A DNA stretch of 35,270 nt from Fidelibacterota bacterium (GTDB lineage Bacteria > Fidelibacterota > Marinisomatia > SCGC-AAA003-L08 > D37C17): positions 5,428-40,697 of the forward strand of contig PBGO01000005.1 of the NCBI GenBank assembly GCA_002719095.1, given 5' to 3'. The notes under the pieces are model-generated. The model had not been told where the DNA came from and ran no database searches. It was given only the letters and a program-made list of their open reading frames with translations. Position numbers and translations under genes: made by a program. The first letter of the stretch is position 1. Each line of letters begins with the position of its first letter. Of the stretch, positions 12,856 through 31,571 are shown in pieces.

Positions 12856-14206
12856 AATAAGTAGTAAAAATATTTTAAAGAAGTGTTTATCAGAAATGAT
12901 GGATTTCAATTTCAATAAATCGATTGAAAGTATTGTAATTGACTCTAGAAAAATTAGGCATAATGATATTTTTTTATGCCTTCAAGGTAATAAAAGTCAT
13001 GGATCAGACTTCATTGATGAAGAAATTCTAAGAAAAGTAAGCTACATAATTACAGATAGTAAAACGAAAGGTGATAAAATTCTTAACGTTGATAACTCTA
13101 ATCTCTTTTTAAATAATTTAGCAAAAAATTTCAGAAAAAGATTAGAAACAAAATTTATTGGAATCACAGGAACCAACGGAAAAACATCAACTAAAGAATT
13201 TTTGTTACAAATGTTAAAAACAAAATTTAATGTTAGTTGCTCAAGAGGAAATTATAATTCTTTAATCAGTATGCCGCTTTCAGTACTTGAATGCAACGAA
13301 AACTCCGATTTTTGTATTTTAGAAATGGGTGCAAGCAAGAATGGCGAAATAGGAAAGTTATGTGAAATAGCTAATCCCAATTATGGTGTTGTTACAAATA
13401 TTTCTGAGTCTCATCTTAAAGGTTATTCAAACTTTAATAGTCTCATAAAAACAAAAATGCAGTTATTCGATTATTTATCAAATAACAATGGAACTTTTTT
13501 TCAAAATCTTGATGATAAAAATATTTCAGTAAAAAATAATGATAAATTGAAATCAATATCTTTTTCTATACTAAATGAAAATTCAGATTATTTTATGAAA
13601 AATAATTACAATGAAAGTAAGGATAATCGCAAAGTATTAATAAATGATTATGAGTTTGTAATGCCCCATCACTCAAAATCCTTTAAATATAATTTTTTAT
13701 GCAGTTACTCAATTGCTTCACATCTTGGAATCAGTAATGAAAATATAGATAAAGGACTAAAAGAATATGATATACCTAATGGTAGAGGAAACATTATTAA
13801 AAAAAATGATTATTTAATAATCAACGATTCATATAATGCTAATTATAAATCAATGACTCAGGGAATAGAAGATTTAAACAGTATTACAAAGGGTAAATAT
13901 AATGCTAATCTTTTTTTGTCTGACATGTTAGAATTGGGAGAAAAGAGTGAATTCTTCCACAGTAAGTTAGGTTGTTTTTTAAGTAACTTAGATTTCATTG
14001 ATAATATTTTCTTAATAGGCAAAAGAGTGGTCACTACGTATGATGCTATTGAAAATAGGAAAGTAAAAAAATATTATTTTGAAGATTTGAATTCATTTTT
14101 TAAAAATTTCAGACTTAAACAAATTGATAAAAATAGTATCAATTATATCAAAGGGTCAAGATCTATGCATTTAAATAAAATAATGGAAGTTTTTGATGTT
14201 AGATGA
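12845..14206 (+). CDS. murF: UDP-MurNAc-tripeptide-D-alanyl-D-alanine ligase MurF
   Basis: MurF attaches D-Ala-D-Ala to complete the cytoplasmic UDP-MurNAc-pentapeptide. The 453-residue protein shows ESIVIDSRKIRHNDIF (N-terminal UDP-binding domain), ATP loop GITGTNGKTSTKEF (around 106-119), EMGASKNGEI with the following NISESH motif, and NDSYNANYKSM in the C-terminal domain, a hallmark of MurF. The ATG at 12845 overlaps murE by 11 bases; a TTG at 12839 would add two residues and cannot be excluded. The central domain is shorter on conserved sequence than usual (lysine/asparagine-rich between about 220 and 265), which probably reflects the strong AT bias. Confidence 0.94.
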   Translation: MRARISSKNILKKCLSEMMDFNFNKSIESIVIDSRKIRHNDIFLCLQGNKSHGSDFIDEEILRKVSYIITDSKTKGDKILNVDNSNLFLNNLAKNFRKRLETKFIGITGTNGKTSTKEFLLQMLKTKFNVSCSRGNYNSLISMPLSVLECNENSDFCILEMGASKNGEIGKLCEIANPNYGVVTNISESHLKGYSNFNSLIKTKMQLFDYLSNNNGTFFQNLDDKNISVKNNDKLKSISFSILNENSDYFMKNNYNESKDNRKVLINDYEFVMPHHSKSFKYNFLCSYSIASHLGISNENIDKGLKEYDIPNGRGNIIKKNDYLIINDSYNANYKSMTQGIEDLNSITKGKYNANLFLSDMLELGEKSEFFHSKLGCFLSNLDFIDNIFLIGKRVVTTYDAIENRKVKKYYFEDLNSFFKNFRLKQIDKNSINYIKGSRSMHLNKIMEVFDVR

Positions 14207-15413
14207 CATAATCCAAATAATAAATCCAAATTTTAATCTATTCGGCTATTTATCTTTTAGATCAATTATGGCATTTGTTTTTGCTTTAACTTTAAGTTTC
14301 TTAATCGGGCCTAAAATAATCCGCACACTCAAAAATCACCAAATAGGTGAAATGATTAGAAAAAATGGGCCTGAATCCCACCTCAAAAAAGAAGGTACAC
14401 CAACAATGGGGGGGGTGATAATATTGATATCTGTCATCCTCCCTACAATCCTTTTTTCAGATGTGACAAATTTTTATATTCAAATAATTTTAGTATCAAC
14501 TTTAGCAATGGGAATCGTAGGACTTATTGATGATTATTTGAAAGTAATTAAAAAATATTCAGATGGGTTAATAGCTAGATACAAGTTATTTGCACAAGTC
14601 CTTATTGGTCTTTTTGTGTCATTAATGATGCTTAATGGAATGAATCAAAATGGTAATTATATCAATGATTACGGAATAGAAAAAGATACCATTCAAAATT
14701 TTGAAGATTATAATTATAGAGCCTCAGAAATTTCAATACCATTTCTTCCTGATAAAAGATTTTCCACAATTAAAAATAATACTTATGAAAAAGTAAATTC
14801 CGTTGAATCAGGGACTATTGAATTAGGTATTTTTTTATTTATTTTATTAAGTATTATCGTTGTTTCAGGAAGTTCAAATTCAATTAATTTAACTGATGGG
14901 TTAGATGGATTAGCTGCTGGTTTATCTGCGATAGTATTTTTTACTCTTGGGATTATAGGTTATGCTACTGGACATGTAAATTTCAGTTCATATCTAAACA
15001 TTACATACATTAATAATTCAGGTGAAATAGCTGTTTTTTGTATGGCAATGGTCGGTTCATGCTTAGGTTTCTTGTGGTACAATACCAAACCAGCAGAAAT
15101 ATTTATGGGTGATACTGGCTCTCTATCTTTGGGAACTGCAATGGGTGTTATCTCGATTATTTTAAAGAAAGAAGTTTTACTGGTAATAATTGCAGGATTA
15201 TTTGTAGTTGAGTCGCTTTCAGTTATATTGCAAGTTACTTATTTTAAATTTTCTAGGTGGAGATATGGGGTTCCAAGGAAAATTTTTATGATGTCTCCAT
15301 TACATCATCATTTTGAATTAAAGGGAATAAAAGAAAGTAAAATTGTTACACGATTTTGGATTTTAGGAATTTTATTTGCTTTAATAGCACTAATCACATT
15401 GAAGGTGCAATAA
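14196..15413 (+). CDS. mraY: Phospho-MurNAc-pentapeptide transferase MraY
   Basis: MraY transfers phospho-MurNAc-pentapeptide to undecaprenyl phosphate, forming lipid I at the inner membrane. Recognised motifs are KKEGTPTMGGVIIL (residues 64-77), GLIDDYLKV with the D112-D113 pair, NLTDGLDGLA (231-240), AEIFMGDTGSLSLG and MSPLHHHFELKG. About ten membrane helices alternate between them. At 405 residues it is longer than the roughly 360 of E. coli because of a polar insertion at about 149-205, in the loop after a membrane helix. Longer MraY proteins of this kind are, to my knowledge, common in Bacteroidota-like bacteria. I chose the ATG at 14196 (11-base overlap with murF) over the adjoining TTG. 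Confidence 0.95.
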   Translation: MLDDIIQIINPNFNLFGYLSFRSIMAFVFALTLSFLIGPKIIRTLKNHQIGEMIRKNGPESHLKKEGTPTMGGVIILISVILPTILFSDVTNFYIQIILVSTLAMGIVGLIDDYLKVIKKYSDGLIARYKLFAQVLIGLFVSLMMLNGMNQNGNYINDYGIEKDTIQNFEDYNYRASEISIPFLPDKRFSTIKNNTYEKVNSVESGTIELGIFLFILLSIIVVSGSSNSINLTDGLDGLAAGLSAIVFFTLGIIGYATGHVNFSSYLNITYINNSGEIAVFCMAMVGSCLGFLWYNTKPAEIFMGDTGSLSLGTAMGVISIILKKEVLLVIIAGLFVVESLSVILQVTYFKFSRWRYGVPRKIFMMSPLHHHFELKGIKESKIVTRFWILGILFALIALITLKVQ

Positions 15414-16729
15414 TGCTAAGTAGATCTATTTCAATTATTGGAGCAGGAATATCTGGAATATCATGTGCTGAGTTTGCATTAAAACTTGGTTATAAAGTTT
15501 TTCTCAGTGAAATATCAAATAAAGATATTAAAATTAAAAATAATAAAAATTTAAAAATTGAAACAGGTCAACACTCAGATGAAATACTTAATAGTAATTA
15601 CATTATTTTAAGCCCTGGTATCCCACAAAATATTGAAATAATAGAAAAAGCTAAAAGAAAAAAAATTCCAATTATTAATGAAATTGAATTTGGTAGCTGG
15701 TTTTGCGAACATGATATTTTAGCAATAACTGGGTCAAATGGTAAATCTACAACCTGTATGATGTTGCACGAAATTTTAGTCAATAATGGATATCAAAGTT
15801 ATTTAGGCGGAAATTTCGGAATACCGTTTACAAAAAATTTAATCAGAACAATGAATAATAAAAGTGATAGAATTGTTCACGTTCTTGAACTCAGCAGTTT
15901 TCAAATTGAATTATTATCAAATTTTAAATCAGATATGTCATGTATTTTGAATATTTCTCAAGATCATCTTGATAGATATATAAATATGGAATCTTACGTT
16001 GAAACAAAACTCAAGATTTTAAAATTTTCAAAAAAAACATTCTACAATAACAAGGATATTAATCTTAAAAAAAAGATTAATAGTGATCATAATCCAAATT
16101 ATTATAAAATTGATTCTAATACTTCATCTTTTAGAATAAATAATAGATCTATCGTTACAAAATCTGGCGAGATTTTATTTAATTTGGAAGAGACTAATTT
16201 TGTGGGAGATCATAATTTGCAAAATGCAATATCTGCCTGTACTTTGGCATTTCACTATGGCGTTGATAAAAATTCAATTTCACAATCAATAAAAAAGATC
16301 AAACCACTAAATCATCGTATCGAATATATTGGACAGTACAGTAATGTTAAATATTATAATGATTCAAAATCAACAAATTTAAATTCGACAATTAAAGCTA
16401 TAAAAAGTTTTGAAAAGAATGTGATTTTGATATTGGGAGGACAAAATAAGGGTTTTGATTTTTCAGAGTTAAAATCTTTTTCCAAAAAGATAAAATTAAT
16501 TTTTTGTTATGGAGATTCAGGTTTAGATATTTCAGAGAGTCTTCATCCTTACTTCAAAACTTATTTTAAGTCTAATTTTAGAAAATGTATTATTGAAGCA
16601 GTAAGAATGTCTTCTGAAAATGATAATATTTTACTTTCTCCTGGCTGCTCAAGCTATGATCAATTTGATAATTTTGAAAAAAGGGGTGATTCATTTAAAA
16701 AAATTATTTCGGAGATTCATTATGTCTAG
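15413..16729 (+). CDS. murD: UDP-MurNAc-L-alanine--D-glutamate ligase MurD
   Basis: MurD adds D-glutamate to UDP-MurNAc-L-Ala. The 438-residue protein starts with SISIIGAGISGISCAEFA (UDP-binding Rossmann part). It has the ATP loop AITGSNGKSTT (105-114), ELSSFQIELL, NISQDHLDRY, YNDSKSTN and the C-terminal SPGCSSYDQFDNFEKRGDSF, a strong MurD signature. The ATG at 15413 shares one base with the mraY stop (TAATG) and has GAAGG at 15401-15405 as a ribosome binding site. The longer frame from 15356 lies inside mraY and is not supported by homology. It overlaps ftsW by 8 bases. Confidence 0.95.
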   Translation: MLSRSISIIGAGISGISCAEFALKLGYKVFLSEISNKDIKIKNNKNLKIETGQHSDEILNSNYIILSPGIPQNIEIIEKAKRKKIPIINEIEFGSWFCEHDILAITGSNGKSTTCMMLHEILVNNGYQSYLGGNFGIPFTKNLIRTMNNKSDRIVHVLELSSFQIELLSNFKSDMSCILNISQDHLDRYINMESYVETKLKILKFSKKTFYNNKDINLKKKINSDHNPNYYKIDSNTSSFRINNRSIVTKSGEILFNLEETNFVGDHNLQNAISACTLAFHYGVDKNSISQSIKKIKPLNHRIEYIGQYSNVKYYNDSKSTNLNSTIKAIKSFEKNVILILGGQNKGFDFSELKSFSKKIKLIFCYGDSGLDISESLHPYFKTYFKSNFRKCIIEAVRMSSENDNILLSPGCSSYDQFDNFEKRGDSFKKIISEIHYV

Positions 16730-17810
16730 ATTTAGCGATATAATTTTACCTGCAATCATAATACTGCTCTCTCTGGGATTAATAATGGTTTATAGTGCCA
16801 GTTCAAGTCCCTTTTCAAATAATATATCTGGATTAACAATTTTCATAAAACAATTTAAATGGGTCTTAATAGGTTTTCTTTTTTTATTTATATGCAGTTT
16901 CATGAATCATAAGAAATTAAGAGATTTCGCTAATTTGTTGTACTTAGTGTCAATAATATTGGCCTTAGTGGCATTCGCAACAAAAAATCCAAATGCCTCA
17001 ACGGCTAGATGGTTGACATTATTTGGTACTAATATTTTCCAAACATCAGAATTTATAAAATTATCTTTGATAATTTTTACAGCATCATTCATCGCAAAAA
17101 ATAAAAGAAAAATTCACGATTTTGATTTTATGATAAAGAGGTTTTATCCATTTTTACTATTACCTCTAATAGTAATTTTATTACAACCTGATTTGAGTAC
17201 TACTCTCATTATAGGAGTTATCATATTTGCAATGTTGTTTACAGCAGGAATAGATAAAAAACAAATAAAAGTACTGTCTGGATTATTAATAGCATCTTTA
17301 ATATTTAAATTTTTATTTATGCCTGGATTGTCAGGAAAAAATAATTATCAAAATATACGATTACAAAGCTATTTAAATGGAAATGCTATTCAACAAGATA
17401 ATGCAGTTGATAGTATTATAGATGGAGGAGTATTTGGTGTTGGGTTAGGAGATAGTATGTGGAAAGGAGATCATGTTCCTGAAGCTCAAACTGATTTCAT
17501 TTATTCAGTAGTAATTTCTGAAATTGGATTATTTGGACTTTTGATTGTAACTATTTGCTTTTTTATTATTTTTATTAGAGGAATTAATGTTGTAAAAGAT
17601 TCAAGAGATTTATTTGGCATGTTCTTAGCTATGGGCATTACGTTTAATATTTTTTTCTACTATTTAGTTCATGTTGGCTATAATATAGGAATTTTACCAA
17701 CAACGGGTCTTCCTCTACCTTTTGTAAGCTACGGTGGCTCGCACACCTTATTCAATTTGTCCCAAGTTGGGCTTTTACTTAGCATAAGTAATAGGATAAA
17801 TAATGAATAA
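16722..17810 (+). CDS. ftsW: Lipid II polymerase FtsW (SEDS family)
   Basis: FtsW is the SEDS glycosyltransferase that polymerises lipid II at the septum together with FtsI. The 362-residue protein has about ten membrane helices. Family motifs are ARWLTLFGTNIFQTSEFIKL (95-114), LQPDLSTTLIIG with the conserved aspartate D157, VPEAQTDFIYSVVISEIG (252-269) and GLPLPFVSYGGSHTLFN near the end. The ATG at 16722 overlaps the murD stop by 8 bases and has GGAG at 16711-16714 as ribosome binding site. The longer frame from 16620 lies within the murD tail. It could in principle be RodA, but the setting between murD and murG is that of ftsW. Confidence 0.95.
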   Translation: MSRFSDIILPAIIILLSLGLIMVYSASSSPFSNNISGLTIFIKQFKWVLIGFLFLFICSFMNHKKLRDFANLLYLVSIILALVAFATKNPNASTARWLTLFGTNIFQTSEFIKLSLIIFTASFIAKNKRKIHDFDFMIKRFYPFLLLPLIVILLQPDLSTTLIIGVIIFAMLFTAGIDKKQIKVLSGLLIASLIFKFLFMPGLSGKNNYQNIRLQSYLNGNAIQQDNAVDSIIDGGVFGVGLGDSMWKGDHVPEAQTDFIYSVVISEIGLFGLLIVTICFFIIFIRGINVVKDSRDLFGMFLAMGITFNIFFYYLVHVGYNIGILPTTGLPLPFVSYGGSHTLFNLSQVGLLLSISNRINNE

Positions 17811-18894
17811 AAATAAAATAAAAAAAATAATTTTAACCGGAGGAGGAACCGGTGGTCATTTAATACCTTCTTTTGCGATTGCTGATAAATTAAAGGCACT
17901 TGATAAAAATTTAAAAATTAAATTTATTGGTTCAAAATGGGGAATTGAATCAAAGCTGTATAAGGACAGAAAAGAGACTTATCATTTGATCGATATAAAA
18001 GGATTTAAAAGAAAAATAAGTATTTTTTCGATTTATGAAAATATAGTTTTATTTCCAATCAGATTTGTAAAATCAATTTTACAAGTTTTAATAATTTTTA
18101 TCCAATTTAAGCCAGATGCAATAATTGGTACTGGAGGATATTCAAGCGCTGTTCCTTTACTCGTTGCAAAAATAAAAAAAGTTAAAATTTACATACAAGA
18201 GCAAAATGCAATTCCTGGATTAGTAAATAAGTTTTTTTTAAAAAGTGCAAATAAAGTTTTCTTTGGGTTTAAAAATGAATGTAATGAAAAAAAATATTAT
18301 CATTCGGGAAATCCTATCCTAAATGTTGTAGAGAATTCATTGGATAAGTCTAAAAAAAATATTGAAAATAATTTTACAATTTTCATCATTGGTGGAAGTC
18401 AAGGTTCGGTTCCAATAAATGATCATTTTTATAAAAACTATCATCATTATGTGAATGAGAATATAAAAATTATTTGGCAATGTGGTCAAAGCAACTTTAG
18501 TAAAATTAAAAAAAATATATCAAATGAAAATATTGAGTTATTAGGATTCATTCAACCAAAAGATATGAATTTATATTACAAGAAAGCAGACCTCGTAATT
18601 TGCAGGTCAGGAGCTTTAACTTTAACTGAGCTTGCTAATTATTGTGTTCCATCAATTTTGATACCTTTACCAAACTCTGCAAATAATCATCAATTTCAAA
18701 ATGCAAAGTATTTTTCTGATTACAATGCAGCAATTACAATCAATCAAAAAGAACTTAAAAAAGGAATACTAGAGAAAACATTTTTAAATATTTTGAATGA
18801 AAAGAAAAAATTAGAGAAAATGAAATTAGGTTTACAAAAAATTTCAATGAAAAATTCTGCTGAATATATATCAAAAGAGATTCTGGATTTCTAG
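17803..18894 (+). CDS. murG: UDP-GlcNAc:lipid I N-acetylglucosaminyltransferase MurG
   Basis: MurG adds GlcNAc to lipid I on the inner face of the cytoplasmic membrane, making lipid II. The 363-residue GT-B protein has TGGGTGGHLIPSFAIAD (residues 12-28), GTGGYSSAVPLLVAK, YIQEQNAIPGLVNKFF, IIGGSQGSVPIND and the donor-binding CRSGALTLTEL followed by PLPNSANNHQFQNA. All main motifs are intact. The ATG overlaps ftsW by 8 bases (ATGAATAA), and the stop is one base from the murC ATG. The distance and order (ftsW-murG-murC) match the standard dcw arrangement. Confidence 0.96.
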   Translation: MNKNKIKKIILTGGGTGGHLIPSFAIADKLKALDKNLKIKFIGSKWGIESKLYKDRKETYHLIDIKGFKRKISIFSIYENIVLFPIRFVKSILQVLIIFIQFKPDAIIGTGGYSSAVPLLVAKIKKVKIYIQEQNAIPGLVNKFFLKSANKVFFGFKNECNEKKYYHSGNPILNVVENSLDKSKKNIENNFTIFIIGGSQGSVPINDHFYKNYHHYVNENIKIIWQCGQSNFSKIKKNISNENIELLGFIQPKDMNLYYKKADLVICRSGALTLTELANYCVPSILIPLPNSANNHQFQNAKYFSDYNAAITINQKELKKGILEKTFLNILNEKKKLEKMKLGLQKISMKNSAEYISKEILDF

Positions 18895-18895
18895 T

Positions 18896-20275
18896 ATGTT
18901 TAATGATAAAATAAATAACATACATTTTATAGGAATTGGAGGAATCGGTATGAGTGGAATGGCCGAATTATTATTTAGAGATGGTTATTCAATTTCTGGT
19001 ACTGATTTAACTGAAAATGATAGGACTGAACATTTAAGAAAGATCGGTATAAATATTTCAATAGGTCATTCTGAAAAAAATATCGAAAATTCTAATTTAG
19101 TTGTTTATTCGTCGGCAGTAAAAGATGACAATGTTGAAATAATAGCTGCTAAAAAAGTTAATATACCTGTCATAAAAAGAGCAGAGATGCTTTCCGAAAT
19201 TGTCAGTATTAAAAAAACTAGTATTGGAATCGCAGGGACGCATGGAAAAACCACAACTTGTTCAATGGTTGGTAATATTTTACATCATTCGAAGAAAGAT
19301 CCCACAATGATAATCGGTGGTATTGTCAAAAATTTTGAAACAAATAATGTTTCGGGAGATGGGGATATAATTGTTGTAGAGGCAGATGAATATGATAAAT
19401 CATTTTTATCATTGAAACCAACTATTGCTGTTATAAATAATATTGAAGAAGAACATTTAGATTGTTATTCAAATATATCAGAGTTAAAAAAATCATTTGA
19501 GATTTTTATTAATAATATTCCATTTTATGGGTTTGTTTTGATTAATGCTGATGATTCAAATATTGAATCAATAATCCCAAATATAAAAAGACCAATGATA
19601 AAATTTAGTCTCAATGGAAAAGGTGACTATAATGCTGAAAATATTTCGTTTAATAAGAATCGAACAAGCTTTGATTTGTTTTATCATGGTGAAAAAATTT
19701 CTTTTATTGAATTATCTGTTCCAGGATACCATAATGTATATAATGCATTATCTAGCATAGCCATATGCAGAGAATTAAATATACCAATTCAAACTATAGC
19801 TAAATCATTTCTTCAGTTTAAAGGTGTTAGGAGGAGATTTGATATAAAATATAATAAAAGTGATAAAATTTATATTGATGATTATGCTCATCATCCTACT
19901 GAAGTCGAGGTAACAATTGATGCCGCTAAAAAAGGATGGCCTGATAAACGAATAATTTCAATATTTCAACCACATCTATTTTCAAGAACAAAAATTTTTT
20001 TCAAAAAGTTTGCTAGAGCATTAGAAAACAGTGACAAAATAATCCTGTTAGATATTTATGGAGCCCGTGAAAATAAAATTAAGGGTGTAACATCGGAATT
20101 AATTTTTAGAGAGCTAAAGAATCATTGTTATGACTCAAAAATTTTAACAACAAAAAATAGTATTAAGGAATCATTGAAAAAAATTTATACTGGAAATGAA
20201 TTGATTATTACTATGGGCGCTGGAAATTTACATACAGAATCAGATAATATTATAAGTGTAATTGAAAATGAATAA
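18896..20275 (+). CDS. murC: UDP-MurNAc--L-alanine ligase MurC
   Basis: MurC adds the first amino acid, L-alanine, to UDP-MurNAc. The 459-residue protein starts with IHFIGIGGIGMSGMAELL (UDP-binding, residues 9-26). It has the ATP loop GTHGKTTT (114-121), VEADEYDKSF, NNIEEEHLDCY, GVRRRFD and IDDYAHHPTEV, then IISIFQPHLFSRTK. These are the standard MurC motifs in order. It starts one base after the murG stop and overlaps murB by 8 bases. The ligases murC, murD, murE and murF are all present in the cluster, but no ddl (D-Ala-D-Ala ligase) is seen between murB and ftsQ, so ddl must lie elsewhere. Confidence 0.96.
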   Translation: MFNDKINNIHFIGIGGIGMSGMAELLFRDGYSISGTDLTENDRTEHLRKIGINISIGHSEKNIENSNLVVYSSAVKDDNVEIIAAKKVNIPVIKRAEMLSEIVSIKKTSIGIAGTHGKTTTCSMVGNILHHSKKDPTMIIGGIVKNFETNNVSGDGDIIVVEADEYDKSFLSLKPTIAVINNIEEEHLDCYSNISELKKSFEIFINNIPFYGFVLINADDSNIESIIPNIKRPMIKFSLNGKGDYNAENISFNKNRTSFDLFYHGEKISFIELSVPGYHNVYNALSSIAICRELNIPIQTIAKSFLQFKGVRRRFDIKYNKSDKIYIDDYAHHPTEVEVTIDAAKKGWPDKRIISIFQPHLFSRTKIFFKKFARALENSDKIILLDIYGARENKIKGVTSELIFRELKNHCYDSKILTTKNSIKESLKKIYTGNELIITMGAGNLHTESDNIISVIENE

Positions 20276-21185
20276 AAAAAATCAGGATTATTTAATGAAA
20301 AAATTTCCAGAAATATCATTTCAGAATGAGTCACTAAGAAAACATTCAAGTTTCGGTATTGGTGGAGAGGCAAAAGTTTTCATGTTACCAAAAAACGAAA
20401 AAGAATTAATTCAAATTTTACAATATGTCAACAAAGAAAATATAAATGTTTTCTTTAGTGGTTCAGGTTCAAATATACTTTACAGTGATGATGGGTTTGA
20501 TGGTTTGATTATATCTCTTAAAAACGCATTTAAAAATTTGCAGATTTCAGATGATGGTCAAATTCTTGCTGGAGCAGGAGTAATTTTAGTAAAAATGGTT
20601 TCAAAAGCTATTAAAAAAAATATTGAAGGATTAGAAAGTTTAGCTGGTGTTCCAGGAACTTTAGGTGGTGCTTTATTTATGAATGCGGGTGCTTATGGTG
20701 CAGAAATATCAAATTATTTCATTTCAGCTAAATTTTTAGATCTTGATGGAAATACTAAAATTATTCAAAATCGTGATGTTTCATTTAGTTATAGAGCATC
20801 CTCATTTCCAAAAAAACATATTTTGATTGAAGCAAACTTTAAATGCAATGTTGGTAAGAAAGAAAATATAATAGATAACAGAAATAAGTTCTCAAATTCA
20901 AGAAAGAATAGTCAACCACTTCAATACAGATCTGCAGGAAGCATTTTCAAAAATCCTATTGATAATTACGCAGCTGGATATTTAATAGAAAAAGCTGGCC
21001 TTAAGGGTATGGTGAAAGGGAATGCGATGATATCAGATAAACATGCAAATTTTATTATAAATCTTGGTGGGGCCTCTTCAAATGATATTATTTATTTAAT
21101 AGATAAAGTACGTGAAAAAGTATTCAAAAAATTCAATGTAAATCTTGAGCTTGAAATAAAACTAGTTGGATTTAAAAATGGATAG
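20268..21185 (+). CDS. murB: UDP-N-acetylenolpyruvoylglucosamine reductase MurB
   Basis: MurB is the FAD-dependent reductase that makes UDP-MurNAc from enolpyruvyl-UDP-GlcNAc. The 305-residue protein has the FAD-binding FFSGSGSNILYSDDGFDG (62-79), GLESLAGVPGTLGGALFMNA (121-140), SYRASSF (174-180) and RSAGSIFKNP (221-230), with the proton-donating serine at S225. The final segment LELEIKLVG carries the conserved glutamate region. The length and the SAGSIFKNP form suggest a type II MurB. I preferred the ATG at 20268 (8-base overlap with murC) to a TTG at 20262. An internal ATG at 20295 is also possible. It overlaps the ftsQ-like gene by 8 bases. Confidence 0.95.
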   Translation: MNKKNQDYLMKKFPEISFQNESLRKHSSFGIGGEAKVFMLPKNEKELIQILQYVNKENINVFFSGSGSNILYSDDGFDGLIISLKNAFKNLQISDDGQILAGAGVILVKMVSKAIKKNIEGLESLAGVPGTLGGALFMNAGAYGAEISNYFISAKFLDLDGNTKIIQNRDVSFSYRASSFPKKHILIEANFKCNVGKKENIIDNRNKFSNSRKNSQPLQYRSAGSIFKNPIDNYAAGYLIEKAGLKGMVKGNAMISDKHANFIINLGGASSNDIIYLIDKVREKVFKKFNVNLELEIKLVGFKNG

Positions 21186-21918
21186 AACTGCACAAAATAG
21201 AATTTTTAATTGTTGCTATTTTTTTACTCTTTTGGTTTCTGCGTATTTTTTATCTCTAGATTTTTATAGTTTTTTAAATGTAAAAAAAGATATCAAGATT
21301 TCTAGCTATAATCTTTTAAATACAGAAATATATGGTAATCATTTTTTACCTAATGTTGAGGTTTTAAAAAAGATAAATAAGGATATTGGATACGAGAACG
21401 ATTATGATTATCTAATTGAAACCTTCAAGACAGTACAGATATCTGAAAATAACAGTGTAGTAATAATCAATGAAAATGAGCCGCTATTTTGTGATTATAG
21501 TAATATTTATTTTTCTGGTGATAAGTACTTACATATTGATAAAGATATTGAAAACAAGCAGGACTTAGTTTTTGTAGATATATATTCAAAAAATAAAAGT
21601 GATTACAAAACTGGATTGAAAAGAATAGAGTCTTTCATTAGTTACCTTAAAAACAAACAAAATGAGATTCATAAAATTCTTGAACGGATTGAGATTGATG
21701 AAGATAGTTTTTTATCAATTTATTTAAAAGGTTGTAAGGTAAAAATGTTCAAAATCTATCATACATACTCAAATATAAATTTGAATAAAATGAAGAAAAA
21801 AATAAGTATTTTCTCATTGTTTTTAAAAAACGAAGAACTAAATATCGAGTCTTTAAAAGAAGTAAATTTAAGTATGGAAGACGATGGATTGATTATATGG
21901 CAAGAAAGATTAAACTAA
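21178..21918 (+). CDS. ftsQ: FtsQ-like division protein (assigned mainly by position)
   Basis: This 246-residue protein has a short cytoplasmic N-terminus, one membrane helix at about residues 9-27, and a periplasmic part of about 215 residues with alternating short strands and helices. The first 80 periplasmic residues (KKDIKISSYNLLN to VVIINENEPLF) look like the POTRA-then-beta arrangement of FtsQ, including a VQISENNSVVIINENEP stretch. Sequence similarity is too low to be sure. It sits exactly where ftsQ belongs, between murB and ftsA, overlaps murB by 8 bases and lies 12 bases before ftsA. FtsQ links early and late divisome proteins at the septum. Confidence 0.65.
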   Translation: MDRTAQNRIFNCCYFFTLLVSAYFLSLDFYSFLNVKKDIKISSYNLLNTEIYGNHFLPNVEVLKKINKDIGYENDYDYLIETFKTVQISENNSVVIINENEPLFCDYSNIYFSGDKYLHIDKDIENKQDLVFVDIYSKNKSDYKTGLKRIESFISYLKNKQNEIHKILERIEIDEDSFLSIYLKGCKVKMFKIYHTYSNINLNKMKKKISIFSLFLKNEELNIESLKEVNLSMEDDGLIIWQERLN

Positions 21919-21930
21919 TTTGAGGAATTT

Positions 21931-23172
21931 ATGAATCAAAAAAATACAATTTGTTGCATTGATGTTGGTACAACTAAAATTGTAGCGATTATAGCTGAAT
22001 TTGATGATACCGGTAAGTTTTCAATTGTTGGAATTGGCGAAAGTAAATCAAATGGTTTGGAGAGGGGTGTTATTGTAAATATTAAGGATACAATTCAGTC
22101 TTTAGACCTGGCTATTTCAAAAGCCCATGAACAATCTGGATACGATGTAGAATCTGTTTATGTTGGTATATCAGGTGATCATATTAATGGTATGAATGCA
22201 ACAGGTATTGTATCTGTTTGTGATAGCAATAATGGACAGTTCGGAAGTGTTATTGATTTAGATGACAAGAAAAAAGTTCTTGAAAGCGCACAAGCTATGG
22301 CGCTTTCAGGAGATCGCAGAATACTTCATGTCTTATCAAAGCATTATGCAGTTGATGAAAGAAATAACATTGAAGACCCCGTAGGTTTAACAGGCAGTAA
22401 GCTACAAGCTGAAGTCCACTTAATTACAAGTTCTTTAAGAACAGAAAATGATTTTAAAACTTGTTTTGATTCTTTAGATATTGAAGTTGAAGCATTTGTA
22501 CTAGAACCCTTAGCATCTTCATATTCAATTCTTAGTAGAGATGAAAAGAAACTTGGTTCAATAATGATTGATATTGGTGGGGGTACAACAGATGTTGTCA
22601 TATGGGAAGAAGGAGGTATTACAAATACGAAAATAATACCTTTAGGTGGAGAAATTATTACAAAAGATATTGCAAGAGTTTTAGGTTGTACAATTAGTAA
22701 TGCAGAAGCACTTAAAATTAGTAATGGCTCAGCAATAAGTATCAATGATCAAGAAGAAATAGTAATTGAAGATATAGAAAATCAAATGATTAAAACTACA
22801 TCTTCTCTCCTATCATCAATAATTGAACAAAGAGTTAAAGAAATTTTAAACGAAGTTAAATATGAAATTGAATCAAGAACTCAAATTGCTAATCTTAGTT
22901 TTGGAATTATATTAACTGGTGGAGGATCTCAATTGAGGAATATATCGAAATTAGCTGAAAAAATTTTTAACTCTAGGGTTAGAATTGGCAAACCTTCAAA
23001 TGACCTCGATTCAATTGATGAAACAATTATTAATCCAAAATACTCAACCGCAATTGGTATAATACAGTACGCAATTGACCACATAGACGAACTAAGAGAA
23101 AATGAAATTAATACAAGTTTAGGTATGATTAAAAATTTTTTTAAAACTGTAAAAGAATTATTTAAAAATTAA
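21931..23172 (+). CDS. ftsA: Cell division protein FtsA
   Basis: FtsA is the actin-like ATPase that anchors FtsZ filaments to the membrane. The 413-residue protein has the phosphate-1 motif CIDVGTTKIVAII (D11), the FtsA-specific 1C subdomain (about 85-165, including HINGMNATGIV), phosphate-2 MIDIGGGTTDVVIW (212-225) and the adenosine-binding ILTGGGSQL. The C-terminus (GMIKNFFKTVKELFKN) is an amphipathic helix, as expected for the membrane-targeting sequence. The ATG is preceded by GAGGA at 21922-21926, one of the clearest ribosome binding sites in the cluster, after a 12-base gap. This suggests that its translation is less coupled than that of the upstream mur genes. Confidence 0.96.
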   Translation: MNQKNTICCIDVGTTKIVAIIAEFDDTGKFSIVGIGESKSNGLERGVIVNIKDTIQSLDLAISKAHEQSGYDVESVYVGISGDHINGMNATGIVSVCDSNNGQFGSVIDLDDKKKVLESAQAMALSGDRRILHVLSKHYAVDERNNIEDPVGLTGSKLQAEVHLITSSLRTENDFKTCFDSLDIEVEAFVLEPLASSYSILSRDEKKLGSIMIDIGGGTTDVVIWEEGGITNTKIIPLGGEIITKDIARVLGCTISNAEALKISNGSAISINDQEEIVIEDIENQMIKTTSSLLSSIIEQRVKEILNEVKYEIESRTQIANLSFGIILTGGGSQLRNISKLAEKIFNSRVRIGKPSNDLDSIDETIINPKYSTAIGIIQYAIDHIDELRENEINTSLGMIKNFFKTVKELFKN

Positions 23173-23187
23173 ATAAAGGAGAAAAAC

Positions 23188-24417
23188 ATGTTAATAGAAC
23201 CAAGTGATTTTAGAGACCAGAGAGCAAAAATATACATTGTTGGTGTTGGAGGAGCTGGTGGTAATGCTGTAAATAGAATGATTGACGAGGGAATGAATAA
23301 TGTAGATTTTGTTGCATTGAATACTGATGCTCAAGATTTAGAGCAAAATAATTCGCAAATTAAATTACAAATTGGTAAAGAATTGACTTCAGGTTTGGGT
23401 GCTGGCGCAGATCCAGTAATTGGTAAGAAAGCCATTGAAGAAAATAAGGAAGTAATAGCATCAACTATACAAGAAGCAGATATGGTATTTATTGCTGCAG
23501 GAATGGGAGGAGGTACTGGTACAGGAGCAGCTCCTGAAATAGCAAAAATTGCAAGGGAGAATGGTGCATTAACCATTGGTATTGTAACGAAACCATTTAG
23601 ATTTGAAGGTCCAAAAAGAATGAAAAGAGCTCTTGATGGAATAGTTGAGTTAAAAAAGAATTGTGATACGCTACTTGTTATTCCAAATGAAATCTTACTG
23701 AATATTATTGATCCTGATACAACAGTTAATGAGTCATTTACACTTGCAGATAGTGTTCTTAAACAAGCTGCAAAAGGTATATCAGAACTTATTAATAATT
23801 CTGGTGATATTAATACTGATTTCGCGGATGTTAGAGCAACAATGGAGAATATGGGAGATGCTATAATGGGTACTGGGGTAGCCTCTGGTGAAGAGAGAGC
23901 TGTATTAGCAGCACAGCAGGCTATTAATTCTCCTCTTCTACAAGATACAAGTATTAAAGGAGCAAAAAATCTACTTCTACATATTTCAGGTCCTAGCGAT
24001 ATGAAAATGAACGAAATGGTTTCTGCTTCGAATATTATTTATGAAGAGGCTGGAGAAGATGTTAATGTCATTTTTGGTTGTAGTACTGACAGTAATCTTG
24101 ATGAAAGACAGGAAATTCACATAACTGTTGTAGCAACAGGAATCAATAATTCTGAAACTATAATTGACGAAGAAAAAGTTTACAAAGGTCATAATCAGAC
24201 AACAAATTATTTTGATAAAAAATCAAAAGAGCATTCAGCTCAAAATATTATAATCAATGATTCCAATGAAGAATCTGAAAATAATGTTATTGATAAAAGC
24301 GAGGATGATTATGAATTAGATTTTAATTCTGATAATATCAAAAAAAGTGATGATACAATGTTAAAATTTGGGGATGATGATATTGATATTCCAACTTTTT
24401 TACGAAATAGTAATTAG
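23188..24417 (+). CDS. ftsZ: Cell division protein FtsZ
   Basis: FtsZ is the tubulin-like GTPase that forms the division ring. The 409-residue protein has GVGGAGGNAVNRMID (19-33), NTDAQDL, the tubulin signature GGGTGTGAAPEIAK (107-120) and FADVRATMENMGDAIMG. The GTPase core ends near residue 320, followed by an acidic, disordered-looking linker rich in D, E, N and S. The final DDIDIPTFLRN is the conserved C-terminal peptide that binds FtsA. A strong AAGGAG (23176-23181) lies six bases from the ATG, fitting high expression. The gene ends in an inverted repeat shared with the convergent RodZ-like gene. Confidence 0.97.
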   Translation: MLIEPSDFRDQRAKIYIVGVGGAGGNAVNRMIDEGMNNVDFVALNTDAQDLEQNNSQIKLQIGKELTSGLGAGADPVIGKKAIEENKEVIASTIQEADMVFIAAGMGGGTGTGAAPEIAKIARENGALTIGIVTKPFRFEGPKRMKRALDGIVELKKNCDTLLVIPNEILLNIIDPDTTVNESFTLADSVLKQAAKGISELINNSGDINTDFADVRATMENMGDAIMGTGVASGEERAVLAAQQAINSPLLQDTSIKGAKNLLLHISGPSDMKMNEMVSASNIIYEEAGEDVNVIFGCSTDSNLDERQEIHITVVATGINNSETIIDEEKVYKGHNQTTNYFDKKSKEHSAQNIIINDSNEESENNVIDKSEDDYELDFNSDNIKKSDDTMLKFGDDDIDIPTFLRNSN

Positions 24418-24888: not shown

Positions 24889-25449
24889 TTAAATGATTTT
24901 TAATTTCTTTAAACAGTTATAAACTCTTGAAACAGGTAATCCTATAATATTTTCATAATTACCAACAATGTAATCAACGAAAATCATGCTTTCATCTTGT
25001 ATTCCATAACTCCCAGATTTATCATATGGCTTATTTTTTTTTATATAGGTTTGGATATCATCTTTACTAATTTCAAAAAACTTTACAGTTGTTTTCTCAA
25101 CAAAATTAATTTCAAAATTACTTGAAATGATTGATATTCCAGTATAAACATTATGTTTTTTTCCGCTAAGTGTTCTTAACATATTGTAAGCTTCTTTAAA
25201 ATCAGAAGGCTTTTCTAAAATTTCATTATCAATCTCAACAATAGTATCTGCTCCAATGATTGTACTATCATTAAATTTTACAAGTACACTTTTTGCTTTA
25301 GCATTCGCAAGTTTCTGGCAATATTTTTTGGGATCTTTGATTAAGTATTTAGATTCATCAAGTTTTGAATCTTCAATTTTAAATGTAATATTCATTTTTT
25401 TTAAAAGTTGGGCTCTTCGTGGACTTTTTGATGCTAAGATTAGATTCAT
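24889..25449 (-). CDS. maf: Maf family nucleoside triphosphate pyrophosphatase (YhdE-like)
   Basis: Maf proteins hydrolyse nucleoside triphosphates such as dTTP and UTP (and modified forms) to monophosphates and are linked to cell-division arrest. The 186-residue protein starts with the diagnostic LILASKSPRRAQLL. It has IIGADTIVEIDNEILEKP (65-81, with D68 as the conserved acid), LRTLSGKKHNVYTGI and GSYGIQDESMIFVDYIVGNYENIIGLP. All family motifs are intact; the motif pattern resembles the dTTP/UTP (YhdE) group, though this is not certain. The ATG overlaps the upstream C25 peptidase stop by 4 bases (ATGA), so the two are probably translated from one message. Confidence 0.93.
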   Translation of the reverse strand: MNLILASKSPRRAQLLKKMNITFKIEDSKLDESKYLIKDPKKYCQKLANAKAKSVLVKFNDSTIIGADTIVEIDNEILEKPSDFKEAYNMLRTLSGKKHNVYTGISIISSNFEINFVEKTTVKFFEISKDDIQTYIKKNKPYDKSGSYGIQDESMIFVDYIVGNYENIIGLPVSRVYNCLKKLKII

Positions 25450-27593
25450 TTCATTTTACTCAATACTTTATTGAATTGCTGTTTTGTCCCATCTGATGAT
25501 GTAATTAGAGCTCTTAAAATATAGTTTCCATTTGGAATAATTTCATTACTATTGTTGGTTCCATTCCAAGTAATTGAGTGAAATTGATTATTTATATCAT
25601 TAACCGAAATATTTTTTACAATCTTACCATTCATATCAAAAATTAAAAAGTCTATATCTAGAGGTAAAAGATTTACATCAGTAATCTGGAAAGTGAAGTG
25701 TGTATTATTTTTAAAAGGATTAGGTAAATTCAAAAAATTACTAATGATCTCTTTATTATTTTCACTCAATATATGTAAATTAATATATTCAGTTGTGCTA
25801 TTATTAAAATTGTCCCATGCTTCAAAGTTCAATCTAGTATCTCCAATATACCGATTAGGAATTGTCAAATTTAAATTACCTTCACCTTTACAAGCATTTG
25901 TATAATTGAAATCCGTGGCTGGAACATTATATGAGTCTAATTCATCGTTGAACCAATATCTGAAATTATGACCTATACCATTATATATATTTATTCCAGA
26001 TTCATCATTCAGTTCAACCGTCAAATCAGTATTATTTTTAATTATAGTATTATCTACTAAATTGAAGTTATTTTTTTTGAAGTTTATATTTGGGCCAGTT
26101 TCGTCAAAAATTTCTAACTGAGAATCATCGTATTTAATTAAAATTTCATTTTTTATTTGAGATACTCCATTATAACTTCCCTCATTTTGAAAGTACATAT
26201 GAGCTTTTCCATTACAGTCAATACAATTTGCTGCATCGATTGGTAATGACAAGCAAATTTCGTCGTTGAACTGATTTTTAAAAAGAATGTTTCCTGGAAC
26301 ATTATAAACAACAGATCCTGGACAAAAACTCGTGGGTTGTCCGTAACTCATTTCTTCAGTTAAATTATCATTATATTTAACGATAATATCACCATAGTCA
26401 TAATTTGGCATATCAAGATTGTAGTTCAATCCAATATTGATTGTATCTGGAAGAACAAGTTCATTTTGGATTTTTTTTGATGAAAAAATTGGTAATGCGG
26501 GATCTCCAAAAAGATGAAATAAGTAGCCTTGGTAATTAGTTGAAGAATTAAATGTGTTTAATTTTGCCGCAGTTATTATATCTCCTAATCTTAATACATT
26601 TGGAGATTCAAAATGTTGAATATATTGCGAAAATAAATTCTCAAGAAAATCAATATTAAAAGTACTGCTTACAGAACGTACCGTTGAGATTACTCCTATT
26701 GCAGCATTTTCGTCTGTTATTAGTTTTTCGGCCATACATACTTCATTATCGTATTGACCAAACTTGCATGTCCCGACCACCCATATTCCTAGCTTGTTGT
26801 TAGATATAGAGATTTGATTTAAATCTCTCTGCATATCTATTATTTTTTCGGCAGATAATGAACGCTGGTCCCCATGGCCAATGTAGTTTATTAGAGCAAC
26901 TCCATTGTTAATTTGATTAATTAAATCCTGATTTAGCTCAACATGTGATAAGCCATCTGCAGTTGCTTCCGCTTGGTAATCAATGCCATACAATGTTTTA
27001 ACGTCCATGTATTCGGATAAAATATTATAAACTACATCGGAATTAGTTGTATGCTTTATTTCACATGCTTGGTTCGAAGCATTTTTGAATTCATCATCAG
27101 CTACTAGAACTGCGGTATCCCTCCATATTCCTAGAGTTGGTTGAGTTAAGAAGATTGTTAGTTTTTCAACAAAATTGTCAATAAGTATACTATCAGATGA
27201 TGGGATTCTTCCAAATGATATATCAGAAGGAATACTTAATGATGTATTATCTGAAATATAAAAATCATCTGAAGGAGAGATATTATTTAAGTAGATTGGT
27301 GGAAAAGTATCCTCATCACCCAAAATTAGTACATATTTCAAATCAGGGTTATCATTGCTCAAGTCACTAATAAAGCTTTTGATATTTAAGGCAAATATTT
27401 GTTCATTGTACAAACTCTCAATCAATAAATTTGAAAAAGTTTGCGTAGTTAATCTAAAATCTTCATCAATTTGATTATTATATAAATCTGAAATAGACAA
27501 AGCTTGCTGTTCGAGTGACGAATCATATAAGATTGCATATTCCAAATTGTTGCATATTGCAAATGATATATAAATTAGTAGGTTTTTGATCAT
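25446..27593 (-). CDS. C25 (gingipain-type) cysteine peptidase with type IX-like sorting domain; PorU-like candidate
   Basis: This 715-residue protein starts with a signal-peptide-like hydrophobic stretch (residues 3-19). The C25 caspase-like catalytic domain covers about 80-380: YVLILGDEDTFPP, ISFGRIPSSD, VALINYIGHGDQ with catalytic H240, and GIWVVGTCKFGQYDN with catalytic C276. The 36-residue His-Cys spacing is close to that of gingipains. Beta-rich Ig-like regions follow. The last 85 residues (NLPNPFKNNTHFTFQI, FDMNGKIV, WNGTNNSNEIIPNGNY) form a FlgD-like type IX sorting domain. C25 enzymes are either secreted proteases or the sortase PorU; this protein is shorter than typical PorU (over 1000 residues), so either role is possible. 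It is the first gene of a minus-strand unit with maf and a RodZ-like gene. Confidence 0.88.
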   Translation of the reverse strand: MIKNLLIYISFAICNNLEYAILYDSSLEQQALSISDLYNNQIDEDFRLTTQTFSNLLIESLYNEQIFALNIKSFISDLSNDNPDLKYVLILGDEDTFPPIYLNNISPSDDFYISDNTSLSIPSDISFGRIPSSDSILIDNFVEKLTIFLTQPTLGIWRDTAVLVADDEFKNASNQACEIKHTTNSDVVYNILSEYMDVKTLYGIDYQAEATADGLSHVELNQDLINQINNGVALINYIGHGDQRSLSAEKIIDMQRDLNQISISNNKLGIWVVGTCKFGQYDNEVCMAEKLITDENAAIGVISTVRSVSSTFNIDFLENLFSQYIQHFESPNVLRLGDIITAAKLNTFNSSTNYQGYLFHLFGDPALPIFSSKKIQNELVLPDTINIGLNYNLDMPNYDYGDIIVKYNDNLTEEMSYGQPTSFCPGSVVYNVPGNILFKNQFNDEICLSLPIDAANCIDCNGKAHMYFQNEGSYNGVSQIKNEILIKYDDSQLEIFDETGPNINFKKNNFNLVDNTIIKNNTDLTVELNDESGINIYNGIGHNFRYWFNDELDSYNVPATDFNYTNACKGEGNLNLTIPNRYIGDTRLNFEAWDNFNNSTTEYINLHILSENNKEIISNFLNLPNPFKNNTHFTFQITDVNLLPLDIDFLIFDMNGKIVKNISVNDINNQFHSITWNGTNNSNEIIPNGNYILRALITSSDGTKQQFNKVLSKMK

Positions 27594-28993: not shown

Positions 28994-29640
28994 TAGGAAT
29001 TCAATTAAATAAAATCTCGTACACAAAGATATTAATAATTATCAACATATTAATTTTTCTTATTATGTATTTCCCGCTGTTCAATTTGAATGGACTTTTC
29101 AGACAATATTTCATTTCATCAGGGATAATGTCTTATGATTTGTTATCCAAATCCTATACAACTGTGTTCAGTATTGAAAATTCTTACAGATTAATTACTG
29201 CTAATTTTTTACATAGTGGTCCCACTCATTTGGTTATGAACATGATGGGGCTTTACATATTAGGAGAACCCACGGAATCAGTTATAGGCCGAAAAAACTT
29301 TATTTTAATTTATATATTGTCAGCTCTTGGCACTACTATGCTTTGTGCTGCTGTTAATATCCTATTCAATCCTTTTGGATTTGAGCCTGTTTTGGGTGCT
29401 TCAGGAGCAGTTTTGGGGATTGGTGGTTGTTTGGCCGGAATAGCTGTTTACCGAAAAATTAATAATATATATGATCCGTTTCAAATTGATTATATGCCAT
29501 TATTGATAATGCTTGGACTAAATATTTTTGTTGGATTGTTTCCTGGGATAAGTCTAACTGGACATTTGGGAGGAATAGTTTCTGGCTTTGCTTTGGGATA
29601 TTTCTTGGCAAGAAAAATTGAACAAAATAGATTCAAATAA
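28990..29640 (+). CDS. Rhomboid family intramembrane serine protease
   Basis: This 216-residue protein has about six membrane helices and the full set of rhomboid active-site features: HLVMNMMGLYILG (H80 and N84, oxyanion region), VLGASGAVLGIGG (GASG with nucleophile S138) and LTGHLGGIVSGFALGYFL (catalytic H192). Rhomboids cut membrane helices of other proteins within the lipid bilayer. The start overlaps the small barrel-like gene by 4 bases (ATGA), and the stop overlaps the convergent ArsC-like gene by 8 bases. There is no signal of an extra cytoplasmic domain. The substrate is unknown; the upstream envelope protein or surface proteins are candidates by proximity only. Confidence 0.93.
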   Translation: MIGIQLNKISYTKILIIINILIFLIMYFPLFNLNGLFRQYFISSGIMSYDLLSKSYTTVFSIENSYRLITANFLHSGPTHLVMNMMGLYILGEPTESVIGRKNFILIYILSALGTTMLCAAVNILFNPFGFEPVLGASGAVLGIGGCLAGIAVYRKINNIYDPFQIDYMPLLIMLGLNIFVGLFPGISLTGHLGGIVSGFALGYFLARKIEQNRFK

Positions 29641-29983
29641 TTTTGTAAATATTTTCTGGTGGTCTTCCAATACAACCTTTTTCATTTATCAAAATGATTG
29701 GTCTTTCAATGATTTTTGGATACATATTCATTAGCTCAAATAATTTTGTATCATCATCAATAAAACAATTTATAGAATTATTTAAGAAGTCTTTTTCGCC
29801 TTTTCTTATGAATTGTTTCGGCCTAAGGTTTAATTTTTTAGAAATTATCTTCAAATCGTCAATTGATGGAGGATCTTTCAGGTAATTGATTACCTCGTAA
29901 TCAATGTTTAAATCTTCTAAAATTCTCAAGGAATTTTTGCTCTTACTTCAATTTGGATTATGGTAAATCAATATTTTTTTCAT
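29633..29983 (-). CDS. arsC: ArsC-family arsenate reductase-like protein with TGA (probable selenocysteine) at the catalytic position
   Basis: Read from the ATG at 29983, the frame gives MKKILIYHNPN, then an in-frame TGA (29948-29950) as codon 12, then SKSKNSLRILEDLNI and a full ArsC-type thioredoxin-fold domain ending with a true TGA stop at 29633-29635. ArsC proteins have IYHNPxCxxS at this place, with catalytic Cys12, so the TGA replaces exactly the nucleophile. The three arginine sites known from R773 ArsC have equivalents in FIRKGEKDF, ERPIIL and IGRPPENIY. Total length would be 116 residues, the normal size. I infer selenocysteine: the frame is intact on both sides, a hairpin follows (29919-29937), and Sec-containing ArsC proteins have been reported in marine metagenomes. 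Alternatives are a TGT/TGC-to-TGA mutation or sequencing error. It overlaps rhomboid convergently by 8 bases. Arsenate is the classic substrate, but a general redox role is also possible. Confidence 0.85.
29919..29937 (-). promoter_or_regulatory. SECIS-like hairpin downstream of the ArsC in-frame TGA
   Basis: In the mRNA, AAAAUUC pairs with GAAUUUU in a perfect 7-bp stem (29931-29937 with 29919-29925) around the 5-base loop CUUGA. A further C-G pair is possible beyond an A-A mismatch. The loop G lies about 20 bases after the TGA, within the range for bacterial SECIS elements. The fit is imperfect, since bacterial consensus prefers a G in the first two loop bases and here it is the fourth. Confidence 0.5.
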
Positions 29984-30077: not shown

Positions 30078-30539
30078 ATGGATGTAATAGATAAAAAAAT
30101 TTTAGCACTACTATCAGAGGATGGCAGAAAAACTGCAAGTAATATTTCTGATGATGTAGGATTATCTGTACCCGCAACATCTGATAGAATTAAAAAGCTT
30201 ATAGATAATGGAATTATAAAGGGTTTCAAGCCAATAATTGATAGTAAACTTATTAATCTAGACATAACTGCATTCATTACTGTTTTTTCTGAGTCTTCTA
30301 AAAATTTTGAGAAAGTTGTTCTCAATGCTCGAAGCAACATTAATATAATGAAATGCTACACTACAACAGGTGATGGTTCTCATCTCCTACTTGTTAAAGT
30401 ACAGAATACTGAAAAATTAGAAAAACTATTAAGAACTATACAGGAATGGCCTGGTGTAAGTAGAACTCAAACTCAAATAGTTCTATCATCTTATAATAAT
30501 TCAGAATCATCAACAACAATTAAACCGGAGGAAAAATAA
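30078..30539 (+). CDS. Lrp/AsnC family transcriptional regulator
   Basis: This 153-residue protein starts with the classic winged helix DVIDKKILALLSEDGRKTASNISDDVGLSVPATSDRIKKLIDNGIIKGF (residues 2-50). A RAM-type ligand-binding domain follows (about 60-140, with CYTTTGDGSHLLLVKV and the EWPGVSRTQTQIVL segment). Such proteins form dimers or octamers that bind DNA and sense amino acids. The stop is directly followed by the glutamine synthetase ATG, with no base between, so it is very likely to control or co-vary with glutamine synthesis, perhaps responding to glutamine or another amino acid. The last 15 residues are a polar tail. It is transcribed away from the ArsC-like gene. Confidence 0.93.
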   Translation: MDVIDKKILALLSEDGRKTASNISDDVGLSVPATSDRIKKLIDNGIIKGFKPIIDSKLINLDITAFITVFSESSKNFEKVVLNARSNINIMKCYTTTGDGSHLLLVKVQNTEKLEKLLRTIQEWPGVSRTQTQIVLSSYNNSESSTTIKPEEK

Positions 30540-31571
30540 ATGCAGACTTTTACCAAAGCTCAATATATTTGGCTTGATGGAGCCATACCTACTCAAAAAT
30601 TGAGAGGAAAAACTAGAATAATTGAAAAGCATGTTTCAAATTTAAATGATTTGCCAGATTGGGGATTTGATGGTTCAAGTACGAATCAAGCAGTTGGTGA
30701 TGATAGCGATTGTTTGTTAAAGCCTGTATTCTTTTTAAATGACCCAACCAGAATAGGTGATGGAATAATTGTCATGTGTGAAGTTTATAATGCAGATGGA
30801 ACTCCTCATAAAACAAATCAAAGGGCAAAATTAAGAAAAATAGCTGAAGAATGTAAGGATCATGATGCATGGTTTGGTATTGAGCAAGAATATACATTCT
30901 TTGATGGTATAAAACCATTGGGTTGGCCTGATAATGGATTCCCTGCTCCACAAGGAGGATATTACTGCGGGGTTGGTTCAGATGAAGTCTACGGAAGAGA
31001 TTTAGTGGAAGATCATTTAGAGGCATGCTTAGCAGCAGGAATTAAAATTTCTGGAATTAATGCTGAAGTAATGCCAGGGCAGTGGGAATTTCAAGTTGGT
31101 CCTCTAGGACCACTAGAAGTATCAGATCAATTATGGATTGCAAGATGGCTTTTATACAAAATAGGTGAAGAATATGGAATTAGTGCTACTCTAGATCCTA
31201 AACCAGTCAAGGGTGATTGGAATGGGGCTGGTGCGCACGCGAATTTTAGTACAAAATCAATGAGAAGTAAGGGAGGTATAAAAATAATTGAAGCTGCATG
31301 TGAAAAACTTTCTAAAAAACATGCCGAACACATTGCAGTATACGGAGCCCTTAACGAAGAGAGATTAACAGGTCTTCATGAGACTTGCAGTATTGAAGAA
31401 TTTAGATATGGAGTAAGTGATAGGGGTGCTTCAATAAGAATTCCTATGCAGACAAAAATTGATGGTTATGGTTATTTAGAAGATAGAAGACCATCAGCTA
31501 ATATGGATCCTTATCAAGTATGTTTTAAGCTTTTGGAAACTGTATGTATTGGTGAAGATGTACCTGCATAA
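30540..31571 (+). CDS. glnII: Glutamine synthetase, type II (GSII, eukaryotic-like)
   Basis: Glutamine synthetase makes glutamine from glutamate, ammonia and ATP. At 343 residues this is the short type II form, not the 450-470 residue GSI. GSII-type motifs are WGFDGSSTNQAVGDDSDC (41-58), WFGIEQEYTFFDG (111-123), YYCGVGSDEVYGRD, INAEVMPGQWEFQVGP (173-188), GDWNGAGAHANFSTKSMR (225-242), DRGASIRIP (294-302) and EDRRPSANMDPY (314-325). The adenylylation tyrosine site of GSI is absent, as in other GSII proteins, so control is likely transcriptional, with the adjacent Lrp-type regulator as the obvious candidate. A strong GGAGG (30527-30531), inside the end of the regulator gene, lies 8 bases from the ATG. 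Confidence 0.94.
   Translation: MQTFTKAQYIWLDGAIPTQKLRGKTRIIEKHVSNLNDLPDWGFDGSSTNQAVGDDSDCLLKPVFFLNDPTRIGDGIIVMCEVYNADGTPHKTNQRAKLRKIAEECKDHDAWFGIEQEYTFFDGIKPLGWPDNGFPAPQGGYYCGVGSDEVYGRDLVEDHLEACLAAGIKISGINAEVMPGQWEFQVGPLGPLEVSDQLWIARWLLYKIGEEYGISATLDPKPVKGDWNGAGAHANFSTKSMRSKGGIKIIEAACEKLSKKHAEHIAVYGALNEERLTGLHETCSIEEFRYGVSDRGASIRIPMQTKIDGYGYLEDRRPSANMDPYQVCFKLLETVCIGEDVPA

Follow-up and report, generated by a model that had tools for sequence, protein, structure and literature searches.

The arsenate reductase ArsC encoded by Escherichia coli plasmid R773 depends on glutaredoxin, and its mechanism comprises an attack on arsenate followed by resolution with thiols. A selenocysteine (Sec)-containing form of the family (COG1393, pfam03960), in which Sec occupies the position of the catalytic Cys within a UxxS motif and a bacterial SECIS element is predicted downstream, has been described from marine metagenomes, with 14 sequences in the Sargasso Sea (PMC1088965) and 77 in the Global Ocean Sampling (GOS) set (PMC2398784); a review from 2022 includes it as well (PMC9312934). 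As regards the SAR406 lineage (Candidatus Neomarinimicrobiota), a 2016 survey found some single-cell genomes with selD only (PMC5029168). In the model of the bacterial SECIS element, a G is wanted at the first two positions of the loop (PMC13188914).

The window analyzed here (the whole stretch of 35,270 nucleotides from a SAR406 bacterium) contains a gene that belongs to this known Sec-ArsC (UxxS) family (Table 1); an earlier note on this DNA had correctly stated that the family is known from marine metagenomes. The gene shares with the Sargasso Sea and GOS sequences the pfam03960 assignment, the placement of Sec at the catalytic Cys and the UxxS motif, and it has a candidate SECIS hairpin downstream. 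It differs from them in that (i) its host is placed in Ca. Neomarinimicrobiota, (ii) its hairpin lacks the loop G, and (iii) the phylum has two SECIS positions. A family known from marine surveys is thereby assigned to a phylum of which few members have been cultured. We consider it highly probable that the gene encodes a small thioredoxin-fold reductase of the ArsC family, in which Sec replaces the catalytic Cys12.

Table 1. Features of the ArsC locus (positions are those of the window).
Feature	Position	Strand	Remarks
Putative Sec-ArsC gene	29633..29983	minus	116 residues, terminator TGA; translation, Pfam ArsC and TIGR00014 matches, PDB match
In-frame TGA	29948..29950	minus	catalytic position 12; UxxS motif is U-S-K-S; aligned with Cys12 of Cys homologues
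Candidate SECIS hairpin	29919..29937	minus	AAAAUUC / loop CUUGA / GAAUUUU; loop 17 nt after UGA and lacking the relatives' G
Codon 19 (Sec+7)	29927..29929	minus	TTG (Leu), false start of the automatic ORF; Val (GTG/GTT) in 48/48 Sec copies with the 17-nt SECIS
Lrp/AsnC-family regulator	30078..30539	plus	divergent from Sec-ArsC; family match
Type II glutamine synthetase (GlnII)	30540..31571	plus	divergent from Sec-ArsC; family match

The minus-strand translation of the gene reads MKKILIYHNPN*SKSKNSLRILED...IRKGE...IERPI...IGRPPENIYKII* (whole product, MKKILIYHNPN*SKSKNSLRILEDLNIDYEVINYLKDPPSIDDLKIISKKLNLRPKQFIRKGEKDFLNNSINCFIDDDTKLFELMNMYPKIIERPIILINEKGCIGRPPENIYKII*), and the TGA at codon 12 is the only internal stop in the frame. 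When this TGA was read through, the product matched Pfam ArsC with 46.4 bits (cut-off 24) and, over its full length, the TIGR00014 arsenate reductase model with 101.8 bits, slightly below the cut-off of 106.05. The PDB matches included solved ArsC structures, among them that of the R773 enzyme (1jzw, 1i9d), to which the homology extends over the full length (E 6e-27) and whose equivalents of His8, Cys12, Ser15, Arg60, Arg94 and Arg107 are kept; the window gene differs from R773 arsC in its TGA-encoded residue 12 and in having no adjoining ars operon. The Spx/YffB branch of the superfamily shares the fold, but its matches were weaker, with scores much below those to ArsC, and the window protein has the Arg60/Arg94/Arg107 set.

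The 104 open codons located 3′ of the TGA were reproduced in none of 20,000 nucleotide shuffles, and the dN/dS ratio of this part, calculated pairwise for pairs with unsaturated dS, was 0.14-0.39. The automatic ORF list contains only a 98-aa ORF (29633-29929) starting at the TTG of codon 19, and therefore a gene caller would lose the ArsC active site. The earlier note had described this locus as an ArsC frame of normal length, with TGA at the catalytic codon, the arginines of the IRKGE, ERPI and IGRPP motifs kept and the active site dropped by ORF calling; this description is confirmed here. In an 18-row alignment, H8, N9, U/C12, K14, S15, Y34, R60, P89, R94, P95 and R107 were invariant.

Homologues of the protein (E 1e-12 or better) were found in 82 of the 245 genomes of the phylum. 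The catalytic codon of the 84 copies, always the same codon, was TGA (69), TGT (8) or TGC (7), so that only TGA or Cys codons occur at this position. Within the order, 23 of 41 genomes contained a homologue, and 20 of the 24 copies had TGA at codon 12. A chance TGA is excluded, since all 69 TGA homologues have it at the same codon. A single base separates TGA from TGT or TGC, but the same TGA occurs in 68 other copies from independent assemblies; a sequencing or assembly error at this codon was therefore rejected, its probability being negligible.

A general reassignment of TGA as a sense codon (e.g. for Trp or Gly) could also place an in-frame TGA within a conserved gene. However, TGA terminates both the arsC gene itself and another gene of the window, the catalytic site is occupied by TGA or Cys codons only, and selA, selB and selD are present in the genome. 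This explanation, to which we give next to no credence, was rejected because TGA also serves as a gene terminator.

Of 80 named ArsC loci, retrieved with search patterns that favoured Cys, 79 (all from outside the phylum) carried TGT or TGC at the catalytic codon. The remaining one, L157 (Candidatus Neomarinimicrobiota bacterium SI037S2_bin13), is a Sec copy, identical over 6348 bases to a stretch of G167, a genome of the same class as the window genome; on this ground the window is assigned to Ca. Neomarinimicrobiota (SAR406). Few forks of the ArsC tree were resolved, and the number of Sec/Cys changes was at least four. Sec-ArsC is conserved across SAR406 genera, where ordinary gene calls would truncate it. 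One homologue (L048, G009:C2) has TGA at codon 12 together with further stops, a frame change and an N-containing stretch, and represents either a decayed gene or poor assembly. A search of genome contigs with a single protein query revealed no relatives, a search of viral contigs with the ArsC alignment gave no matches, and phage records contained only distant ArsC proteins (≤33% identity).

The genome from which the window derives (1.46 Mb in 36 contigs, 90% complete, 5.4% contamination) contains selA (400.6 bits) adjoining selB (353.7 bits) on contig C25, and selD (367.7 bits) on contig C27; beyond the window, this genome was covered by searches and by a few stretches. The selD gene has one in-frame TGA, which corresponds to the active site (TSYSSGAGUACKLSP). 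It is therefore a selenoprotein gene itself (L021, G000:C27; TGA at 9091, minus strand), with a GU-loop hairpin (UCCCAA-GUU-UUGGGA) 33 nt after the TGA.

No tRNA-Sec gene (selC) was detected at the Rfam score in the 90% complete assembly, where the top matches were Ser, Leu and other tRNAs, and neither ARAGORN nor Rfam revealed one near selAB. Such a gene is present in 31 of the 41 genomes of the order; among the 20 that carry a TGA-containing arsC, 13 have it and seven, including the window genome, lack it. In G012 and G018, selC adjoins a TPR/SPOR-like gene, which was not found in the window genome either (in a search run with no positive control); the shared absence fits a missing stretch of the assembly, although it does not prove it. 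The Sec machinery is thus represented by selA, selB and a Sec-containing selD, and not by tRNA-Sec. Considering these three genes and the selC of relatives, the SAR406 genomes of the 2016 survey were perhaps incomplete.

Another candidate selenoprotein gene of this genome (L023, G000:C2; 4898-6034, minus strand, TGA at 5857) has a frame of approx. 360 aa that matches no Pfam family. It contains the sequence EPCGUKKKP, with a CGU motif, and a GU-loop hairpin that is strong (−11.7 kcal/mol, z −2.3). In its CxU motif it is reminiscent of a selenoprotein from the GOS survey, the UshA-like one. Scattered N bases are frequent in some contigs of the same genome (L020, L024, L025, L220), which suggests masked or polymorphic assembly positions, and there are none in the window.

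A bacterial SECIS hairpin is expected to have G as its first or second apical-loop base and to be placed 16-37 nt after the UGA. The hairpins of the relatives fall into two classes. Type A, with 48 copies, has a loop (most commonly CGUGNN) that starts approx. 17 nt after the UGA, and Sec+7 is invariably Val (GTG in 39 copies, GTT in nine). Type B, with 19 copies, has the loop CGUGA 30 nt after the UGA; here Sec+11/12 is invariably encoded by CGT GAC (Arg-Asp), and Leu is found at Sec+7. L036, with the loop AGUUG at 22 nt, is the sole copy so placed. Leu occupies Sec+7 in 78 of the 80 named loci (Val was found in one, being either the Sec copy L157 or one Cys copy), and it is therefore the default of the Cys homologues.

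The type A stems covary, with pair switches G-C/U-A, A-U/G-C and G-C/A-U and with the five inner pairs kept in 45/45 copies; compensatory changes that preserve the pairs are likewise seen in type B. Of the 69 TGA copies, 67 have, at the expected spacing, a stem of 5 bp or longer that carries a GU loop, compared with two of the 15 Cys copies. The two TGA copies that fail this test are the window copy and L181, whose CGUGA loop is accompanied by one stem mismatch. These conserved, covarying downstream hairpins mark bacterial SECIS elements. As part of a wider reading that we hold only tentatively, the SECIS of one enzyme family may have moved between two places of the coding region within SAR406, each locking different residues. 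A limited search revealed no description in the literature of the two SECIS positions or of the outlier loop. With these two positions, nature provides a test of the constraint that an intragenic RNA signal imposes on the encoded protein.

The window copy has a perfect 7-bp stem at the type A position, yet its Sec+7 is Leu (TTG), and it alone lacks the loop GU, which is present in the other 68 of the 69 TGA copies. A 7-bp stem at that position arises in 23% of synonymous shuffles and is hence weak evidence by itself, and the fold energy of the hairpin is unremarkable (z −0.86). A search of this copy further downstream for another SECIS of the GU type gave a single candidate, a weak A/U stem located 32 nt from the UGA and having the loop AGA, which was judged to be due to chance. 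A SECIS is thus conserved and covarying in the relatives, whereas the apical-loop G is absent from the window copy. Taken together with the TGA/Cys-only relatives and the presence of selA, selB and selD, the covariation supports the view of the earlier note that the gene is a probable selenoprotein gene. Sec coding of the ArsC lineage is very likely; Sec insertion in this exact window sequence is less certain, because its hairpin loop lacks the guanine kept by the relatives.

The unusual loop could be, in decreasing order of likelihood, a variant that is tolerated, a sign that function was lost very recently, or an error of the consensus. If the loss were real, a lineage that had Sec-ArsC would just have lost efficient Sec insertion in this copy through the loop change, UGA would mostly terminate, and the gene would be a very young pseudogene; in a variant of this explanation, the loop base is wrong owing to the assembly or to a strain consensus. 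The uniqueness of the loop fits such a loss, since the selD hairpin of the same genome keeps its GU loop and SelB therefore probably still reads, and should still want, canonical loops. The end branch of the window copy in the ArsC tree is also longer than that of its nearest relative (0.73 versus 0.29). However, the downstream codons are intact, all of the catalytic residues are kept, dN/dS is 0.14-0.39 where measurable, the 7-bp stem has been retained at the exact family position, and the window contains no N bases. We thus consider recent loss distinctly improbable and favour a Sec-containing reductase, whose loop makes the window copy a natural test of how strict SelB is for the apical G.

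In the mechanism that we propose, SelD would supply selenophosphate, from which SelA would make Sec-tRNA, and SelB would bring this tRNA to the UGA, aided by the hairpin just downstream, while the 3′-terminal UGA, having no such hairpin, would still terminate translation. As homology suggests, residue 12 would be held as selenolate by His8, Ser15, Arg60, Arg94 and Arg107 and would attack arsenate or a substrate like it; a low-molecular-weight thiol and a glutaredoxin would then resolve the resulting selenium adduct. The frame, the codon position, the conservation, the Sec genes other than selC and the covariation of the SECIS in relatives are shown by the data, whereas Sec insertion in this copy, what the enzyme acts on and what resolves its adduct are inferred. 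Counted against this explanation are the loop lacking GU, the frequent occurrence of the stem in shuffles, the plain fold energy and the absence of tRNA-Sec from the assembly, as well as two findings on arsenic metabolism: a search of the window genome for exporters of the ACR3 family (SBF) found none, and its only glutaredoxin match has the motif CxFS, which we take to be of the monothiol type.

The residue set of glutaredoxin-coupled arsenate reductases (His8, Cys/Sec12, Ser15, Arg60, Arg94, Arg107) is complete in the window gene, and the likely chemistry is therefore that a selenolate attacks arsenate, or a substrate related to it, and that thiols resolve the product. The protein may have a role other than arsenic detoxification, since in most members of the family, and in some loci beyond it, arsC is divergent to the Lrp/AsnC and GlnII genes; among the 48 scanned ArsC loci of the phylum, Lrp is a neighbour in 21 and GlnII in 20. 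It might then be a redox protein with Sec, belonging to the ArsC/Spx superfamily and acting on a substrate other than arsenate, perhaps linked to nitrogen regulation, which is compatible with Sec coding. The conserved divergent neighbours, the missing ACR3 match and the TIGR00014 score just below the cut-off point in this direction, but the catalytic residues of R773-type ArsC are all invariant and arsenate reductases head the PDB matches, with Spx far below them; we regard a non-arsenate substrate as rather unlikely.

Elsewhere in the window, a cell-wall and division cluster (FtsI/PBP2-like, MurE, MraY, MurC, FtsA and FtsZ) occupies positions 9711-24417 of the plus strand. The minus strand encodes a Peptidase C25 protein (25446-27593) that is similar to PorU, the sortase of type IX secretion, at 275 bits (cut-off 420) and has an FlgD-like Ig domain close to its end.
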